Part shown: positions 16,988 through 24,572 of the stretch, in pieces
Position numbering within the stretch: the stretch's first letter is position 1
Layout: each line of letters opens with the position of its first letter
IMG/VR virus record: IMGVR_UViG_3300023268_000002
Span: 1 to 40,172 of that record
Strand: one strand, 5' to 3'
DNA: 40,172 bases
DNA from: a virus
Notes under the pieces: generated by a model
Seen by the model: the letters and a program-made list of their open reading frames with translations, nothing else
Told to the model about the DNA's origin: nothing
Databases searched by the model: none
Made by a program: the position numbers and the translations under genes

Positions 16988-17424
16988 TACTTCACCCCCA
17001 TTGACTGTGCGAGTTGAGTGAAGCTCGTCAGCAGTTGCATGCAGTTGGTGATCTTTTCGCTCAAGCTGGTTGAGTCCTGTCCGACAAACCCGGGTTCGAC
17101 TCCCCCTGAGACGTAAGCCGTCAGAGCAATCTGTGCAGCTCGTAGGGCGAGTTCGAGTTGCTTGCCATGCTGGCGGACGGTGGCGAGTTGATCGTCAGTG
17201 AGCAGTCCCGATTCAGCAGCCCCGCCCGCAGCGATCATCAACTGCCGATGGACGGTTGCAGCCGAGACGAGCCAGTCGGCGTACGACTTGTACAGGGCTT
17301 GCTTAGGCTGCTGCTGCGTGCTGGTGGGGGTTGCAGGAGAGGGGGAGGCTGAGCACCCACCCAGCCCTAGAGAGGCTGTCAGACACGCTGCCAGAGCAAG
17401 TCGCTTGTGCTTGTTGAGCTTCAC
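16987..17424 (-). CDS. Lipoprotein
   Basis: A 145-residue protein with a basic start (KLNKHKR), a hydrophobic stretch and the lipobox LGGC near residues 20-23, followed by SASPSPATPTSTQQQP, the sort of linker seen after the lipidated cysteine. The mature part is mostly helical (YADWLVSAATVHRQLMIAAG, KQLELALRAAQIALTAY). It is probably an outer- or inner-membrane lipoprotein. It is longer than an o-spanin usually is. GTG start overlaps the holin stop as GTGA, with AAAGGA upstream. Confidence 0.8.
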   Translation of the reverse strand: MKLNKHKRLALAACLTASLGLGGCSASPSPATPTSTQQQPKQALYKSYADWLVSAATVHRQLMIAAGGAAESGLLTDDQLATVRQHGKQLELALRAAQIALTAYVSGGVEPGFVGQDSTSLSEKITNCMQLLTSFTQLAQSMGVK

Positions 17425-17753
17425 GGTTGCACGTCCTTTCTCTCGCTCGACAGAAGACTCTGCACAGCTTCGGTCTGAGCCTTCTGGTGCTGCAAGGTCT
17501 GGACGCTGGCTTGTGCGGCGAGGGCTGAGTCCTTCTGGCCGCGGGCAATCGCCAGCCGCGTGAAGATGAAAGCAAGAAAGATCAGCCCGCCGGTCAGAGC
17601 CGTAATCTGCTTCTGACTCAGTTCAATGATGTCGAACCCTGAGAGGAACATCGTCACGATCCCCACACCGGCTGTGATGTAGGTCTTGAGGTTCCCGATC
17701 CCGGCACTGAACACGTCCATGTCCGGAAGGTCGGTTCGTTGGTTTTGATCCAT
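17421..17753 (-). CDS. Holin-like two-span membrane protein
   Basis: A 110-residue protein with two spans, at about 26-46 (LKTYITAGVGIVTMFLSGF) and about 55-72 (ITALTGGLIFLAFIFTRLAI), followed by a charged, glutamine-rich cytoplasmic tail. Size and layout fit a class II-like holin. The catalytic endolysin candidate is far away at 33316, which is unusual. AAGGAG lies about 9 nt before the ATG. If it is a holin it would time lysis by opening the inner membrane; the call is by topology only. Confidence 0.65.
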   Translation of the reverse strand: MDQNQRTDLPDMDVFSAGIGNLKTYITAGVGIVTMFLSGFDIIELSQKQITALTGGLIFLAFIFTRLAIARGQKDSALAAQASVQTLQHQKAQTEAVQSLLSSERKDVQP

Positions 17754-18590: not shown

Positions 18591-19403
18591 CTATTGATCA
18601 GCTTCCTTGAACGAGATTGAGACTTTGTACTTCTTGCTGGAGTAGGCCGAGCGGCTGATAGGCTCGCGCGTGTGACTGCCTTCGAAAGTCGCCCAGATCG
18701 CATCTGAATAAGTCGCTGGCGAGAGGGGTTCTGGGATGACTAGCACCCTGCGCGTGTTCAACGATTGCAGACATAAGTTCTCGACGGTATAAGCTTGATC
18801 CTTAGTCAACCTCTCAAGACTATACTCATGCATCCTCTGTGCCTTCTGGCTGCCCGGGACACCTTGGATGCTTGTTGAGCTTTTCCATTCCATGAATGGG
18901 AACTGCAACCCGAGACCGATGCGAGCTATGCCCCACTCTTGATAGTTGGCAGGGTTCGCGGAGTCGGATTGATGCCAGCGGGTGTACCGCTTTGAGATCG
19001 AGCTGGGGAGGACATAGATCAGCGTGCGACCCCAAAGAGGCGTGTAGATGACACGGGACTGCCCCAGGGAGAGATCCGTGGCAGCGGTGAGGGTTGCTCC
19101 CGACTCAACTACTCCAGTCGTAAATCCGGAGTCGTCGGCTGCTCGGAACCTCCTGAGAGCCTGCGGGGTGGCGTTCGTCCCCGTGAGCATGAAGACGTTG
19201 AACTCCACTGCCGCCCCCCAGTCCCAGGTCAGTTGACGGTCGGCGGTCAAGTCGGGAGTCCTCGTTCTGCTGAGGAGTTGGGAGTTTTTCAGATTCGCTA
19301 GTGGAAACCCTGAAACAGGCGTGAAATTCGCCGTGGGGGTGGTGTTTTCGCCCACACCATCAAAGAAAGCTATGAGCAGGGTGTTGGTGGTCGTGGTTGG
19401 CAT
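18591..19403 (-). CDS. Discoidin-like tail protein
   Basis: A 270-residue protein. The N-terminal half (about 25-140) reads as a jelly-roll, with FPLANLKNSQLLSRTRTPDL, LTWDWGAAVEFNVFMLTGTN and FRAADDSGFTTGVVESG. That matches a family of phage tail-tip proteins in which 'PL.NL....' and 'DLG....V.AL.L...N' are typical. The C-terminal half has a second beta domain with QKAQRMHEYSLERLTKDQAY. It probably forms part of the tail tip next to the 1226-residue protein, though it is separated from it by the plus-strand island. Its ribosome site is weak. Confidence 0.65.
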   Translation of the reverse strand: MPTTTTNTLLIAFFDGVGENTTPTANFTPVSGFPLANLKNSQLLSRTRTPDLTADRQLTWDWGAAVEFNVFMLTGTNATPQALRRFRAADDSGFTTGVVESGATLTAATDLSLGQSRVIYTPLWGRTLIYVLPSSISKRYTRWHQSDSANPANYQEWGIARIGLGLQFPFMEWKSSTSIQGVPGSQKAQRMHEYSLERLTKDQAYTVENLCLQSLNTRRVLVIPEPLSPATYSDAIWATFEGSHTREPISRSAYSSKKYKVSISFKEADQ

Positions 19404-19500
19404 CGGCTAGAGCCCCGAGAGGGTCCTGCGGGGGAGTTTAGCACACCCGCGAGGGTATAGCCGACTGACTATTTTCACCGAGGGCGAAGATTTCTCTTGA

Positions 19501-19534
19501 CCGCTGAGCAGAGCTGTAGGATGCTTTTCAGCGG
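19501..19534. repeat. Inverted repeat between divergent genes
   Basis: CCGCTGA (19501-19507) and TCAGCGG (19528-19534) are perfect inverted repeats with a 20-nt gap. They lie in the 180-nt space between the minus-strand gene starting at 19403 and the plus-strand gene at 19584. They could be an operator for divergent transcription. A TTGACC overlaps the left arm, but no matching -10 at good spacing is seen, so I do not call a promoter here. Confidence 0.4.
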
Positions 19535-19583
19535 AAAGGACAATCTTAGCCTTCCATCTTGAACCGACAAAGGAGATTAAGGA

Positions 19584-19832
19584 ATGAAGAGAAACTTGCT
19601 GCTGTGCCTCGCTATCATTCTGTGTCTGTGTGCGCTTTCGTCTGGAACGGCCGTCGCTGATGGTTACCCCTGTAGTTGGCCCGGGGACGTTTATGTTCCT
19701 GCTGCCGCGACATGCTGCTCTTGCACCCAGTGGGCCGGTGAGTGGTCCTGCAACTGCGGCGGCGGAACCTATTGCGGCACCTGCGGGAGTGGGACCGGTT
19801 GGTGTTGCTACGACCAGCAAGACGTGTGGTAG
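19584..19832 (+). CDS. Secreted cysteine-rich miniprotein 1
   Basis: An 82-residue preprotein. Residues 1-26 are a textbook signal peptide (MKRNLLLCLAIILCLCALSS followed by GTAVADG, with cleavage expected after AVA or VAD). The mature part is about 56 residues with ten cysteines (CCSC, CNC, CGTC, CC) plus many glycines and tryptophans, so it is likely a disulfide-knotted periplasmic or secreted protein. GGAGATTAAGGA precedes the ATG. It is on the strand opposite to almost all other genes here, which is typical of a moron. No homologue is recognised; roles such as exclusion or receptor masking are only guesses. Confidence 0.75.
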   Translation: MKRNLLLCLAIILCLCALSSGTAVADGYPCSWPGDVYVPAAATCCSCTQWAGEWSCNCGGGTYCGTCGSGTGWCCYDQQDVW

Positions 19833-19916
19833 CCACATCCATTGAAGTTGCGCTGTATGCTTGAAGACAACGAGGCGTCGCTAATGACGTGCTCACTTTT
19901 GAGGAGTGCCACGAAA

Positions 19917-20177
19917 ATGAAAAAGCTGCTTTGTGTTCTTGGTCTCTTGACCATCGTCCTGTTCAGTAGCCGCGAAGTTCGAGCCGGTGCCAACTGCCCC
20001 TCCAACGCACAGCTTCTCTGCGGTCGATCGTGTGATAGCGCAGCGGCGACTTGCAATTCGCGGTGTGATCACTGGACGACATGGCAAGTCACCGAAGGCT
20101 GCCGGATGGAGTGTGACACGGATCTTACTGCCTGTTATAACAACTGTGCGGTGTATGGAGGGTGTGCAGCTATCTGA
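19917..20177 (+). CDS. Secreted cysteine-rich miniprotein 2 with repeated CX3C motifs
   Basis: An 86-residue preprotein whose signal peptide is MKKLLCVLGLLTIVLFSS with cleavage expected after VRA (about residue 24). The mature part has ten cysteines. C-x3-C-x6-C-x3-C appears twice with identical spacing (CGRSC...CNSRC and CRMEC...CYNNC), predicting two disulfide-stapled helical hairpins. GAGGAG lies about 11 nt before the ATG at 19917; an in-frame start further upstream would give an extension without signal-peptide character. It follows the first secreted gene by 84 nt. The function is unknown. Confidence 0.75.
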   Translation: MKKLLCVLGLLTIVLFSSREVRAGANCPSNAQLLCGRSCDSAAATCNSRCDHWTTWQVTEGCRMECDTDLTACYNNCAVYGGCAAI

Positions 20178-20217
20178 AGAACCTGCCGAGGACTGCCGAG
20201 GACCCGAAGTTCTTTTT
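20177..20217 (+). terminator. Weak possible terminator after secreted gene 2
   Basis: AAGAAC at 20177-20182 pairs with GTTCTT at 20209-20214, followed by a T run to 20217. The stem is only 6 bp and the loop is long, containing a tandem CTGCCGAGGA repeat (20183-20202). It lies between the second secreted gene and the promoter of the third. Confidence 0.35.
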
Positions 20218-20224
20218 GGACACG

Positions 20225-20254
20225 CGCCCCTCTTGACAACCCTCAGGAGGGGCG
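20225..20254. repeat. GC-rich inverted repeat overlapping a promoter
   Basis: CGCCCCTC (20225-20232) and GAGGGGCG (20247-20254) are perfect inverted repeats. The -35 box TTGACA sits between the arms and the right arm runs into the spacer. No T run follows, so this looks like an operator and not a terminator. Confidence 0.55.
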
Positions 20255-20262
20255 GTTACGAT
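20233..20262 (+). promoter_or_regulatory. Strong sigma70-type promoter for secreted gene 3
   Basis: TTGACA (20233-20238), an 18-nt spacer and TACGAT (20257-20262) make the best promoter match seen in the window. Transcription would begin near 20269, about 120 nt before the ATG at 20391. Confidence 0.7.
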
Positions 20263-20390
20263 CTGCTCATCCGGCTAACCCGTTTGTCTCGTCTTGGGGT
20301 CTCTAAAAAAGTAAGAAGCGGTTGCGGTCGCGGTTGCGATGTTCACGCGAGGGGGCAATCAAGCCCACTCTTGTAAAGAGGAGTTGTCTC

Positions 20391-20825
20391 ATGGTACGGA
20401 AGTGTTGTGTGATCGCTGTTCTGGCCTGTTGTCTGTTGGCAGTGTGCAAGCCTGTCTCAGCCACAGACTACAACTATGGTGAACTCCAGGGGAACGTCTT
20501 TTACACGATCACCGAAAACGGACACACAGATCTGACTCTGCGAGTGAAGTACAACGGCCTCGATCAGTTCCTCGTGACGCGGTGTCCTGACAACGGTTCT
20601 GCCCTCGGGAACCTCTGCAAGGACATTTCGCTGCTCAACGGATATTGTCAGTTCTACGGTGTGTCTGGAGACACAGGCTCGACCGGCTACCGCTGTTTCG
20701 ACGGACAAGTCGGTAAATGCGTATCTGCGCGAGGCACCATCATCGCCGAGGAGAAGACTGGACAGCAGATCCTTCTGCTCGACTCGCTGTTCACGAAGCA
20801 GCAGAGCTACTGTACTCCCAAGTAA
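20391..20825 (+). CDS. Secreted cysteine-containing protein 3
   Basis: A 144-residue preprotein. The signal peptide MVRKCCVIAVLACCLLAVCK plus PVSATDY suggests cleavage after VSA. The mature domain, about 120 residues, is beta-rich (GNVFYTITENGHTDLTLRV, FLVTRCPDN, STGYRCFDGQVGKC) with six cysteines, probably three disulfides. AGAGGAG lies 7 nt before the ATG. It has its own promoter, so it may be expressed apart from the first two, including in a lysogen. It ends 66 nt before a convergent tail gene. No family is recognised. Confidence 0.75.
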   Translation: MVRKCCVIAVLACCLLAVCKPVSATDYNYGELQGNVFYTITENGHTDLTLRVKYNGLDQFLVTRCPDNGSALGNLCKDISLLNGYCQFYGVSGDTGSTGYRCFDGQVGKCVSARGTIIAEEKTGQQILLLDSLFTKQQSYCTPK

Positions 20826-20855
20826 GTCCCTCCCCCCGCAACGCTCGATGATTCG

Positions 20856-20898
20856 AAAAGGGTTGACGGACTTGTGACCACCCCGGGTCCGTCAACCC
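20856..20898 (-). terminator. Strong terminator closing the structural transcript
   Basis: A perfect 12-bp stem, GGGTTGACGGAC (20860-20871) with GTCCGTCAACCC (20887-20898), is followed on the minus strand by TTTT (20856-20859). The stem includes the stop codon of the 1226-residue gene. It can also stop readthrough from the convergent plus-strand genes, though it has no T run on that side. Confidence 0.8.
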
Positions 20899-23800
20899 CA
20901 CAGCCCCAGCTCTCCCACAAGGTCTATAATCTTCACGCTCATTGTTACAACTCTCGCAGGACGACCATCCACAAAATCAGGGTGGTTGTCAAACACTACG
21001 ATCTCGTCCCCGATCGTCAGCATTAGCAGTGCTTCCGCCAACTCTTGCACCTCAGAGTATCTAGTGCTTGGATCGAGACGGAACCTGAGCAGATCCGCTA
21101 CTGCCTGCGATCCCGTCTGATCATACAAGACACTGTTGTTGATGTGAGCTTCGCGGAATCCCTGATACTTGACTGGATCGATTCCGGTCAGAAATGGGAT
21201 GGATTGCTCAGGGTTGATCAAAGAAGCCCTCACAGCAGCCGAAACGCTCGCAACTATGTCAGCATTGGACAGGACTTGCAGGTTTGTCTGGTATGGGACT
21301 TCTACTCGAATCGCAGGTACAGGAGTTCGCACCTTCGAGAGCATTGTTGCTGCTCGTGAGTGGATCAGATCAATCACCAACCCCGGACACCACCGACATC
21401 CGTGAGCCCGTCCGTACACCCCTTGCACAGATTCGTAGGGAGCGTCTGACAGCTTCCCGTCTGTCAGAGCTGCAAGGAATCGATTCGTCCCCGCCATAAA
21501 AGGCTGAAACAACACTCCGTACTGAGCGGGGTCTTGTCCGGGCGAACCTCCAATCGTGTAGCAGATCGATCCGACAAATCCTCCCATGGGTCCGTGTCCG
21601 ATCCGTAATGGTATGCCCGTCGAATCTGTCAACGTGCCCGTAGCAACACCTGTCGAGCTGATCGATTCAATACCGAGCGATCCACCGCCAGCTACAGGGT
21701 AGATCAAATTAGACACTTTCAAATACCAACTGCCGCCTTGCACAACCGCCGAGAACCCATACCAAGTATTCGCCTTCCATGACATGTAGTTGCCGAGAGT
21801 CGTGTAGTGCAGACCGCCGCCGAAATTGATCCCGCCCGCAGCAAACCTCAAGGCTCCTGTGTCACCATCGATGCCGAGATAATAGCCGCTATTAGTGCCA
21901 GACATCTTATCAATGATCGTGTAACCGGGCTGCGAGTAATCGCCAGAGGTTGAGAGTGACAGGTCCGGCGTGATCGGTCTAGTGATTTTGAACCATCCCA
22001 ACAGACCGAAGTTGCCAGCGCTTTGAGTCAGAGCATATGATCCTGTGAGATCCGAGAACGTCACGCCTCCACTCGGCAGACCTACAAACTCTAGAAGGTT
22101 GTTCAAGTTCTGATATGGGTCTGGGTTGATCGTTGGGAGCATCGCACCTGCTGATAACCTAGCGTCTCTATCAAGCGCGTAGAAAGTTCCTGTACTGCCG
22201 AAGTGATCATCGAGAAACTTGGATGTAGTTGGGGGTTGAGGGTAGTAGAACCCCCCACGAATTGGCATGACGGTTCTGAGCCCCGCGAACGACGTCAGGT
22301 CTCCCGTGGATCTGTCAATCAAATTTCTGTCTGTGAGTGTGTCGATCACCAACTGAGGAACGTGAGTAGTCGGTGATTGCAACGTTGCGGAGTCTTTGGC
22401 CAACCCGAACGTAACAGGTTGACCGCTCGGGCTCAAGTCAGCCGTTCCAGGTCCTTCACTCAACTCCAGATAATCCGTTACAGGAGTAAGAGTAAAGCCT
22501 TGAACACGGACTTCTAGAGCTGTGCCTGTCGTCTTATCTCGATCGTTGAACCTGTAGATGTTGCGGACCGGATCGATGTTCTGAGTTGGAGCGTGAAACA
22601 GTACACCCCCGCTCATCGGCATCGGCGAACCTGTAATCTCCTGTGAGCCTAGAAAAGTCGGGTACCACGAGCGGTCTGTGTTGTTCACTCCCTGGAGAGT
22701 TCCGTGGTTGGCAATGGTGGCGTAGTCGGTGACCGTACTGCCGGTGTTGTCGTCGCCTCGGTGCATCGAGATCGTCATTGCATCAGGATCACGTCGAGTC
22801 GAGAACCTTCCAACCGCTGTCTTCTCATCCACATAACTCTCGATCCGATGATCACAGAACATCCCACCCGTCATGCCAGACAGGACCGTCACTGCTGAGT
22901 CGCCTAACTGAACTGCTTTGGAAAGAATCCCACCGTCGATATGAATCCCGTCAATGTTCAGATACCATTCACTATTACTTTTCACGCCGGCCACGATGTT
23001 GTGAAACTCAGCAGTATTGAGCAAAGGACTGCTGATGGAAGTGAATAGAACAGTGCCATCATTGGCAGTCGCCCTGAATAGCAATGTGTGCCTGCTAGAG
23101 ATGGTCGCATAGGAGGACTGAAAGACGATCAACTCCCATTGTAAGCGAGACGTAGCTGTGTGAAAACGCTGCGAGACAAGGCCGTAGGACGAGCCTGCGA
23201 ATCCTATCAACGGGACAAACACTCTACAATAGATCACGAGGCCAGTTTGATTATAATTGACGTTGCTGGGTATTGACAGGTACCCCAGGCTGGTCAGAGA
23301 TTTAACGCCCGTACTGATGCCAATGTTTCGCTTAACAGGAATCTCTTTGCTGAGAAAGGCAGTAGGTGGTCCAACCTGGAAAGAGACTTGATCACCATTA
23401 ATCTCGGGTTCTTGCGATGGAATCGAAAAACCGGCAATCTCGCTACGCCTGTGTAGGTTGCGGATTCCGCTGAGGTAGTCAGGCGAGAGTCCAGGCTTGA
23501 CCCGCCACAGCTTGCTCACCCGCACCTCGATCGGCCTCCCATAGAATGAATACCGCGACCACACACTCAACGGCCCTGCACTGTTCGGGCTCGTGGCTTC
23601 ATTCTTGACGACAATCGTGTTGCGGGTTGGCAGCGCGGCACCTGACAAGAAAGCATCCGCCTCGACCTTACTTGCAATCACTCCAGCATCTATCAGCGGA
23701 TACATGACAGTGTTGCTGGGATAATCGGTCGGACCTGTGACACGAGGATGGCTTGAGAACCACGCTTCCTGAACTTGGTCAGCATCAGGGTTGTAGAACT

Positions 23801-24572
23801 CCACCCGCACGGTCGTCTCGATCGTCTCGTCAGGCTCGACAATCCATTGCCGCATGACCTCGTCACGATCATCCTCACTGGGGGCGGTCTGGCCGTTCGT
23901 CGCGCAGGAGAAGTAATGCACCTCGGCAATCTCGCTTGACAACGTCCAGACAAGCCCCACACCGCCCGTAGCGAGCGAGCTGTCGGTGGTCGTCAGCGCC
24001 CATCCTGGCTCAACCCCCCCATCAGCCCATACCCTCGCCCACAACCGCGTGCCAGTCACCCGAAACACGACATTATAAAAAGTCCCTAGGGTCAGCGTCT
24101 TGGCGACTGAGGCGAGATCCGTCACCACACCCCCCACAACCTTGCCGATTGTCAGCCCTGTGACAACCCCCATCTTCAGATAATAGTAGTTCTCAGCGCC
24201 AGTTGTGCCGCTCGCCCGCAGACACCCTATCGATCTGTCAGTCGTCTGCTTGAGGAACCTGACGCGGAACCTCTCCTCCTGATTAGCATAGCCAAGATCG
24301 CTCGTGGGGGCTTTCCACACAACAGCCGTAGGATCTGTATTCACCCCTGCCAAGCGGAGGTAGTTCTTGTCCGCGAGTTCGATGAAATTCCCCTCCACAA
24401 CTAACCCTGTGGAGGGTTTGAAAAGCATTGTCCAATCGCCCATCAACCGCCCGCGCCGATATTCTCTGAAATCCGTCCAGTGCTGTCCTGGTGCGACCGG
24501 CAGAAGAGCGGCTACAGGAGTACCGACGTATCCCGCGTCCACAAAACCTGAAGTTACGAACATGTCAGCCAC
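20892..24572 (-). CDS. Large tail-tip protein with LamG-like lectin domains
   Basis: A 1226-residue protein. At least two, probably three, concanavalin/LamG-like sandwiches are visible, near residues 55-220 (DWTMLFKPSTG ... FYNVVFRVTG), 430-600 (LLFRATANDGTVLF, FHNIVAGVKSNSEWYLNIDG) and 860-1060 (FGLLGWFKITRP, SGYYLGIDGDTGALRF). Between 250 and 400 lies a phage tail domain with a YGRPIEVRV motif, and the C-terminus has an alpha-beta end (QELAEALLMLTIGDEIVVFD). It probably forms the tail tip or receptor-binding body, binding glycans through the lectin domains. GTG start with GAGG upstream. Confidence 0.75.
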   Translation of the reverse strand: MADMFVTSGFVDAGYVGTPVAALLPVAPGQHWTDFREYRRGRLMGDWTMLFKPSTGLVVEGNFIELADKNYLRLAGVNTDPTAVVWKAPTSDLGYANQEERFRVRFLKQTTDRSIGCLRASGTTGAENYYYLKMGVVTGLTIGKVVGGVVTDLASVAKTLTLGTFYNVVFRVTGTRLWARVWADGGVEPGWALTTTDSSLATGGVGLVWTLSSEIAEVHYFSCATNGQTAPSEDDRDEVMRQWIVEPDETIETTVRVEFYNPDADQVQEAWFSSHPRVTGPTDYPSNTVMYPLIDAGVIASKVEADAFLSGAALPTRNTIVVKNEATSPNSAGPLSVWSRYSFYGRPIEVRVSKLWRVKPGLSPDYLSGIRNLHRRSEIAGFSIPSQEPEINGDQVSFQVGPPTAFLSKEIPVKRNIGISTGVKSLTSLGYLSIPSNVNYNQTGLVIYCRVFVPLIGFAGSSYGLVSQRFHTATSRLQWELIVFQSSYATISSRHTLLFRATANDGTVLFTSISSPLLNTAEFHNIVAGVKSNSEWYLNIDGIHIDGGILSKAVQLGDSAVTVLSGMTGGMFCDHRIESYVDEKTAVGRFSTRRDPDAMTISMHRGDDNTGSTVTDYATIANHGTLQGVNNTDRSWYPTFLGSQEITGSPMPMSGGVLFHAPTQNIDPVRNIYRFNDRDKTTGTALEVRVQGFTLTPVTDYLELSEGPGTADLSPSGQPVTFGLAKDSATLQSPTTHVPQLVIDTLTDRNLIDRSTGDLTSFAGLRTVMPIRGGFYYPQPPTTSKFLDDHFGSTGTFYALDRDARLSAGAMLPTINPDPYQNLNNLLEFVGLPSGGVTFSDLTGSYALTQSAGNFGLLGWFKITRPITPDLSLSTSGDYSQPGYTIIDKMSGTNSGYYLGIDGDTGALRFAAGGINFGGGLHYTTLGNYMSWKANTWYGFSAVVQGGSWYLKVSNLIYPVAGGGSLGIESISSTGVATGTLTDSTGIPLRIGHGPMGGFVGSICYTIGGSPGQDPAQYGVLFQPFMAGTNRFLAALTDGKLSDAPYESVQGVYGRAHGCRWCPGLVIDLIHSRAATMLSKVRTPVPAIRVEVPYQTNLQVLSNADIVASVSAAVRASLINPEQSIPFLTGIDPVKYQGFREAHINNSVLYDQTGSQAVADLLRFRLDPSTRYSEVQELAEALLMLTIGDEIVVFDNHPDFVDGRPARVVTMSVKIIDLVGELGLWG

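Follow-up and report, generated by a model that had tools for sequence, protein, structure and literature searches.

The window, i.e. the whole stretch of DNA analysed here, spans the full 40,172 bases of an IMG/VR virus record and harbours a real, non-random and previously undescribed cassette of three genes for putatively secreted, cysteine-rich proteins. Judged by its sequence anatomy, the site is a slot for an exchangeable accessory cassette, of a general kind that is already known, and one of the three proteins belongs to a new family that is linked to a host lineage. As the best explanation, we tentatively propose that the island is a moron-like, fast-changing accessory cassette in a cargo slot of the tail cluster, whose exported acidic disulfide proteins may interfere at the envelope during infection; we give this reading somewhat less than an even chance.

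The three adjacent genes are encoded on the plus strand at positions 19584-20825 and, as claimed in an earlier note on this DNA, run against all neighbouring genes, which lie on the minus strand. The island is flanked on one side by a gene for a 270-aa protein (18591-19403, minus strand) and on the other by a 1226-aa tail gene of the tail cluster (20892-24572, minus strand). Gene 1 (P0001; 19584-19832, plus strand) encodes 82 aa with a Sec-like signal ending in AVA before DG and a mature part of 57 aa with ten cysteines, a pI of 4.05 and no Lys or Arg. Gene 2 (P0002; ATG, 19917-20177, plus strand) encodes 86 aa with a Sec-like signal ending in VRA before GA and a mature part of 63 aa, again with ten cysteines, and a pI of 4.52. 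The 144-aa product of gene 3 (P0003; ATG, 20391-20825, plus strand) shows a Sec-like signal ending in VSA before TDY and cysteines at positions 65, 76, 86, 102, 110 and 141. In their mature form, all three have an acidic pI (4.1, 4.5 and 5.2) and contain few or no Lys/Arg. The reported cysteine counts of 10, 10 and 6 were confirmed and exceed the background of 0.69% Cys in the 18 other window genes (binomial p ~7e-12, ~2e-11 and ~2e-4 for genes 1, 2 and 3, respectively). When both strands of the 40 kb were scanned with a crude Sec-type pattern, four ORFs emerged, three of which are the island genes, in line with the signal peptides proposed earlier; signal-peptide use as well as transcription of the island are predicted.

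In terms of gene content, the window is siphovirus-like (capsid, adaptor, endolysin, tape measure, helicase, Sak4-like annealing protein and ERCC4-type nuclease). No relatives of the window were found by megablast among 50,697 phage records; the sole relative was found in IMG/VR via the tape measure (82% identity) and is a sister phage of 60,147 bases (G001), which additionally encodes terminase, portal, protease and DNA polymerase. Neither the window record nor the G001 record has terminal repeats, so both may be incomplete. The replication genes are those of a self-replicating phage, and the proteins scanned in the window and its 60-kb sister, which cover part of the small ORFs, include none recognised as an integrase or repressor. 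For this reason, we dropped the lysogeny reading of the earlier note, according to which the island would give a lysogen a new trait.

Window and G001 are collinear at ~80% nucleotide identity (70-88% in most aligned blocks), and the alignment breaks at window positions 19528-21088, i.e. at the island. The proteins flanking this break are 73% (tail protein) and 93% identical between the two phages. In G001, the slot is bordered by homologous genes for 1233 aa and 270 aa and likewise holds opposite-strand genes: one encodes a homologue of protein 3 with 149 aa (38% identity, E = 1e-20), and genes 1 and 2 are replaced by two different genes. The slot contains a 188-aa protein with a signal peptide, eight cysteines and no family (L003:21101-21667, minus strand) and, under the promoter block shared by both phages, a 64-aa ORF beginning MKKKLRKLALTSETLRSLRGGED... 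(L003:21857-22051, minus strand) with a RiPP-leader-like start resembling the lanthipeptide model TIGR04149. Recurrence of the triplet in other phages, which had been considered before, was therefore not observed, since the sister keeps the third gene only. The picture of an inserted cassette rests on one comparison, between the two phages in which the slot was seen. We also considered the 188-aa protein (protein 5) as a paralogue of protein 3 and rejected this, because the cysteine spacing is alike but the score of 2.7 bits compares with up to 15.4 for shuffled sequences. Elsewhere in G001 (L017:9238-9801 and 17183-17713), two proteins match PHROG 4786 (cysteine dioxygenase-like cupins).

The slot appears to carry its own expression signals. 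A putative island promoter (19485-19530, plus strand; GAAGATTTCTCTTGAC...CTGTAGGATG) is conserved 5' of the first slot gene in G001, where the flank alignment revealed a block common to both phages (GAAGATTTCTCTTGAC...CTGTARGATG). The TTTCTCTTGAC core occurs in only three copies on both strands of window and G001 (~100 kb), every copy lying upstream of slot genes and the third one inside the G001 slot upstream of the 188-aa gene. The -35/-10 spacing of this putative promoter is not ideal, and it is absent from the window list of a consensus scan. Upstream of gene 3, where the consensus scan gave one match compared to 0.5 expected, lies a promoter-like TTGACA-18-TACGAT (20233-20262, plus strand). 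A stretch of 25 nt around it (window 20218-20242) recurs without mismatch in a promoter-like region of genome G365, which belongs to the same Acidobacteriota order as the putative host family described below; this suggests that the phage may rely on a promoter of host type or has acquired one. In G365, the stretch sits upstream of an ORF beginning MCSILGLLDLHTDPK. Between the converging island and tail gene we found a strong terminator-like hairpin (20860-20898, z = -3.3) with a T-run on the minus-strand side and none on the plus strand; in G001, a T-tailed hairpin of 19 bp (z = -5.9) marks the end of the slot.

The slot content of the sister phage bears on the main rival reading, according to which the exported disulfide peptides would be released or secreted as bacteriocin-like effectors inhibiting neighbouring bacteria, and the lanthipeptide-like precursors of the sister could be matured by host enzymes. 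Besides the 64-aa ORF in the slot, a second leader-like ORF of G001, located outside the slot, contains RRLSLNRETLRYLNGG. A 70-aa ORF of G001 beginning VKKTQIRRLSLNRETLRYLNGG... (L015:5055-5267, minus strand) has a Cys/Thr/Gly-rich core and an upstream TTGACG-N18-TAGAAT; it is encoded on the opposite strand behind an 863-aa fibre-like protein with a PcRGLX-like domain at threshold. We derived a strict leader pattern from both G001 peptides and searched 84,980 genomes with it. Of the four loci matched, three belong to Acidobacteriota MAGs (labels Thermoanaerobaculum or Holophagales) and are real Cys-rich precursor-like ORFs; two of these three precursors exceed the cut-off of the class I lanthipeptide model NF038153. 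In addition, LANC_like proteins were detected in all four genomes of the putative host family (16 in G002, 4 in G003, 10 in G004 and 5 in G005), compared to 1/14 control genomes. Many of the LANC_like matches in G002-G005 lie in frames of at least 1000 aa, and locus L020, from the Thermoanaerobaculum-labelled MAG of this family, carries a tandem pair of class I lanthipeptide-like precursor ORFs. These findings make killing of competitors a serious contender, which we nevertheless regard as doubtful: the three proteins of the window bear Sec-like signals instead of RiPP leaders, their acidic composition, poor in or free of Lys/Arg, is unlike that of most killing peptides, and no immunity gene was identified. 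The peptides of the sister phage themselves fall short of the curated models, as P0006 reaches 14.2 bits against TIGR04149 (cut-off 25) and P0007 matched no NCBIfam model.

Next to the sister phage, gene 3 has relatives in bacterial chromosomes. The earlier note had recognised no family for any of the three proteins; this holds for proteins 1 and 2 and had to be revised for protein 3, as homologues of it were found on chromosomes of one Acidobacteriota family. A profile built from the two phage sequences matches chromosomal genes in 3/4 genomes of this family. All phage and chromosomal members have an N-terminal signal and share six invariant cysteines. For two of the three homologues tested, none of the shuffles with fixed cysteines reached the observed score (0/2970 and 0/2980), whereas the third one, in G002, is weaker and scores 8.2 bits alone against the mature phage profiles, a value reached by 9/2989 shuffles. 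Across the 72 genomes of the order, a six-member profile gave three matches, all within the family of four and none in the 68 others, and among 101 genomes drawn from the class it matched G002 alone. The near-empty result of a phylum-wide search with the two-row profile was disregarded, as too few candidates were scored per genome and G002 itself was missed. No match to protein 3 was found in Pfam or NCBIfam, nor by a PDB profile search. Judged by these comparisons, protein 3 represents an undescribed secreted six-cysteine family. Its restriction, among cellular organisms, to one bacterial family is good but inconclusive evidence for both host and source: the host is most likely a member of this family of soil-type Acidobacteriota, which belongs to the class Thermoanaerobaculia, and protein 3 was probably captured from the host lineage. 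DNA matches between the phage and genomes of the host order comprised chance-level short ones and the promoter-like identity described above; no prophage or spacer was evident.

The shared family raises the possibility that protein 3 substitutes for the secreted homologue of the host or competes for its partner, thereby keeping or altering envelope physiology, with genes 1 and 2 being accessory. That the homologues are chromosomal genes of the host lineage with the same six cysteines speaks for this reading. We consider it unlikely, however, as the chromosomal contexts differ (L024, L025/L026 and L027) and offer no conserved neighbours pointing to a function, and as the homologue is absent from one of the four host-family genomes.

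Structure prediction had been suggested as a check. The AlphaFold model of protein 3 from the two-row alignment has a pLDDT of 37 and gives a beta-beta-beta-alpha order only; an OB-like fold would be a guess, and Foldseek returned nothing. In mature protein 2, the cysteines form two CX3CX6CX3C units with one further cysteine at either end, and two helices with four cysteines on one face of each are therefore predicted. The single-sequence AlphaFold2 model is in line with this arrangement, with helices at residues 31-50 and 56-80 and a pLDDT of ~81-92 for residues 31-80. Protein 2 is thus predicted to be a two-helix hairpin with a cysteine ladder, for which we infer nested disulfides 27-83, 35-77, 39-73, 46-66 and 50-62. 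For protein 1, no fold was obtained. Searches of Pfam, PHROGs, INPHARED, IMG/VR and the four host-family genomes yielded no homologues of proteins 1 and 2, and NCBIfam gave none above cut-off. A scan of IMG/VR for the cysteine pattern of protein 2 returned more than 120 matches, all of which were low-complexity or repeat reads not resembling protein 2.

Under the preferred reading of envelope interference, the cassette would be transcribed during infection from promoter-like signals of its own, against the direction of the structural genes. Its three products would be exported via their Sec-like signals, the signal peptides removed, and disulfides formed in the periplasm or outside. Protein 3 would share its fold with the secreted protein of the host lineage, and genes 1 and 2 would be exchangeable cargo. 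Given their acidity, small size and predicted disulfide locking, the mature proteins would most likely bind an envelope or extracellular protein rather than pierce membranes; the acidic pI and the lack of Lys/Arg in protein 1 argue against membrane-disrupting cationic peptides. Based on the location, the rapid divergence and the exchange of cargo, we infer a role in interference during infection, which may consist in blocking the entry of competing phages or the envelope response of the host.

A broader view would combine both phages, and we hold it to be rather improbable: in phages of lanthipeptide-rich Acidobacteriota, the slot could be reserved for cargo consisting of exported peptide effectors. 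The window would then supply Sec-exported disulfide miniproteins and the sister a stand-alone lanthipeptide-type precursor matured by host synthetases, i.e. two borrowed host chemistries of peptide stabilisation doing the same extracellular job.

All readings that involve genes 1 and 2 presuppose that these are real. It could be argued that one or both are not and that gene 3 alone is expressed, since neither has homologues, the codon usage of gene 2 is neutral (-0.015) and an antisense ORF (19407-19838) overlaps gene 1. We find this scenario hard to maintain. Shine-Dalgarno-like AAGGAG/GAGGAG sequences lie 8-15 nt 5' of all three island genes, the starts of genes 1 and 2 are Sec-like, their cysteine content is far above background, and the conserved promoter block lies just 5' of gene 1. 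Codon usage also prefers gene 1 to its antisense ORF (0.074 versus -0.123, and -0.19 along the shared stretch). For gene 3, codon usage is supportive (0.137), and the homologue in the second phage provides further backing. Finally, although the island sits inside the tail-gene cluster, it is very improbable that its products are virion or lysis parts, such as tail-displayed small disulfide proteins or an adaptor that serves the neighbouring 1226-aa tail protein, since they are encoded on the opposite strand with separate promoter-like signals, carry Sec-like signals whereas virion proteins assemble in the cytoplasm, and are subject to gene replacement in the sister although the tail protein is 73% identical; their sequences likewise uphold the earlier view that they are not virion-like.

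To our knowledge, few Acidobacteriota phages have been characterised, and the accessory proteins exported by such phages are largely unknown. By way of an undescribed family of secreted proteins that both share, the island connects a virus with one specific bacterial family, and the slot points to mutual replacement of exported disulfide miniproteins and lanthipeptide-like precursors. If phages do borrow host lanthipeptide synthetases for their own peptides, this would represent a novel means by which a phage arms or alters the cell it infects.

Compared to known systems, no known moron or exclusion protein matches the island proteins by sequence. The helix-loop-helix with CX3C pairs predicted for protein 2 recalls the plant alpha-hairpinins, and the best sensible PDB neighbour of the model is the alpha-hairpinin nigellin-1.1 (2nb2; TM 0.69 to target), with a non-significant Foldseek E-value of 2.6. 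Protein 2 differs from this group in its ten instead of four cysteines, its helices of ~20-25 residues, its phage origin and its acidity. The alpha-hairpinin motif reads CX3CX4-20CX3C with a helix-loop-helix; protein 2 has two CX3CX6CX3C units and a helical-hairpin model, with each unit placed within one model helix. With ten cysteines it falls outside the definition that allows no three or more cysteines beyond the 4C/6C core (PMC11591084). Given the non-significant fold match and this exclusion, the likeness is probably at most convergence. Similarity to class I lanthipeptide leaders (NF038153 and TIGR04149) is confined to P0006 and P0007 of the sister phage, which resemble precursors of the putative host lineage yet stay under the curated cut-offs; the three window proteins are devoid of such a leader. 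The closest parallel is to phage morons. The island departs from them in that no sign of a temperate lifestyle was recognised in the scanned phage proteins, its base composition is not distinct (55.5% GC versus 54.7% for the genome) and no empty slot was seen, as the sole close relative also carries cargo there. It resembles them in its orientation opposite to the structural operons, its own promoter- and terminator-like signals, its products predicted to be aimed at the envelope, and a content that varies between related phages while the flanks are conserved.
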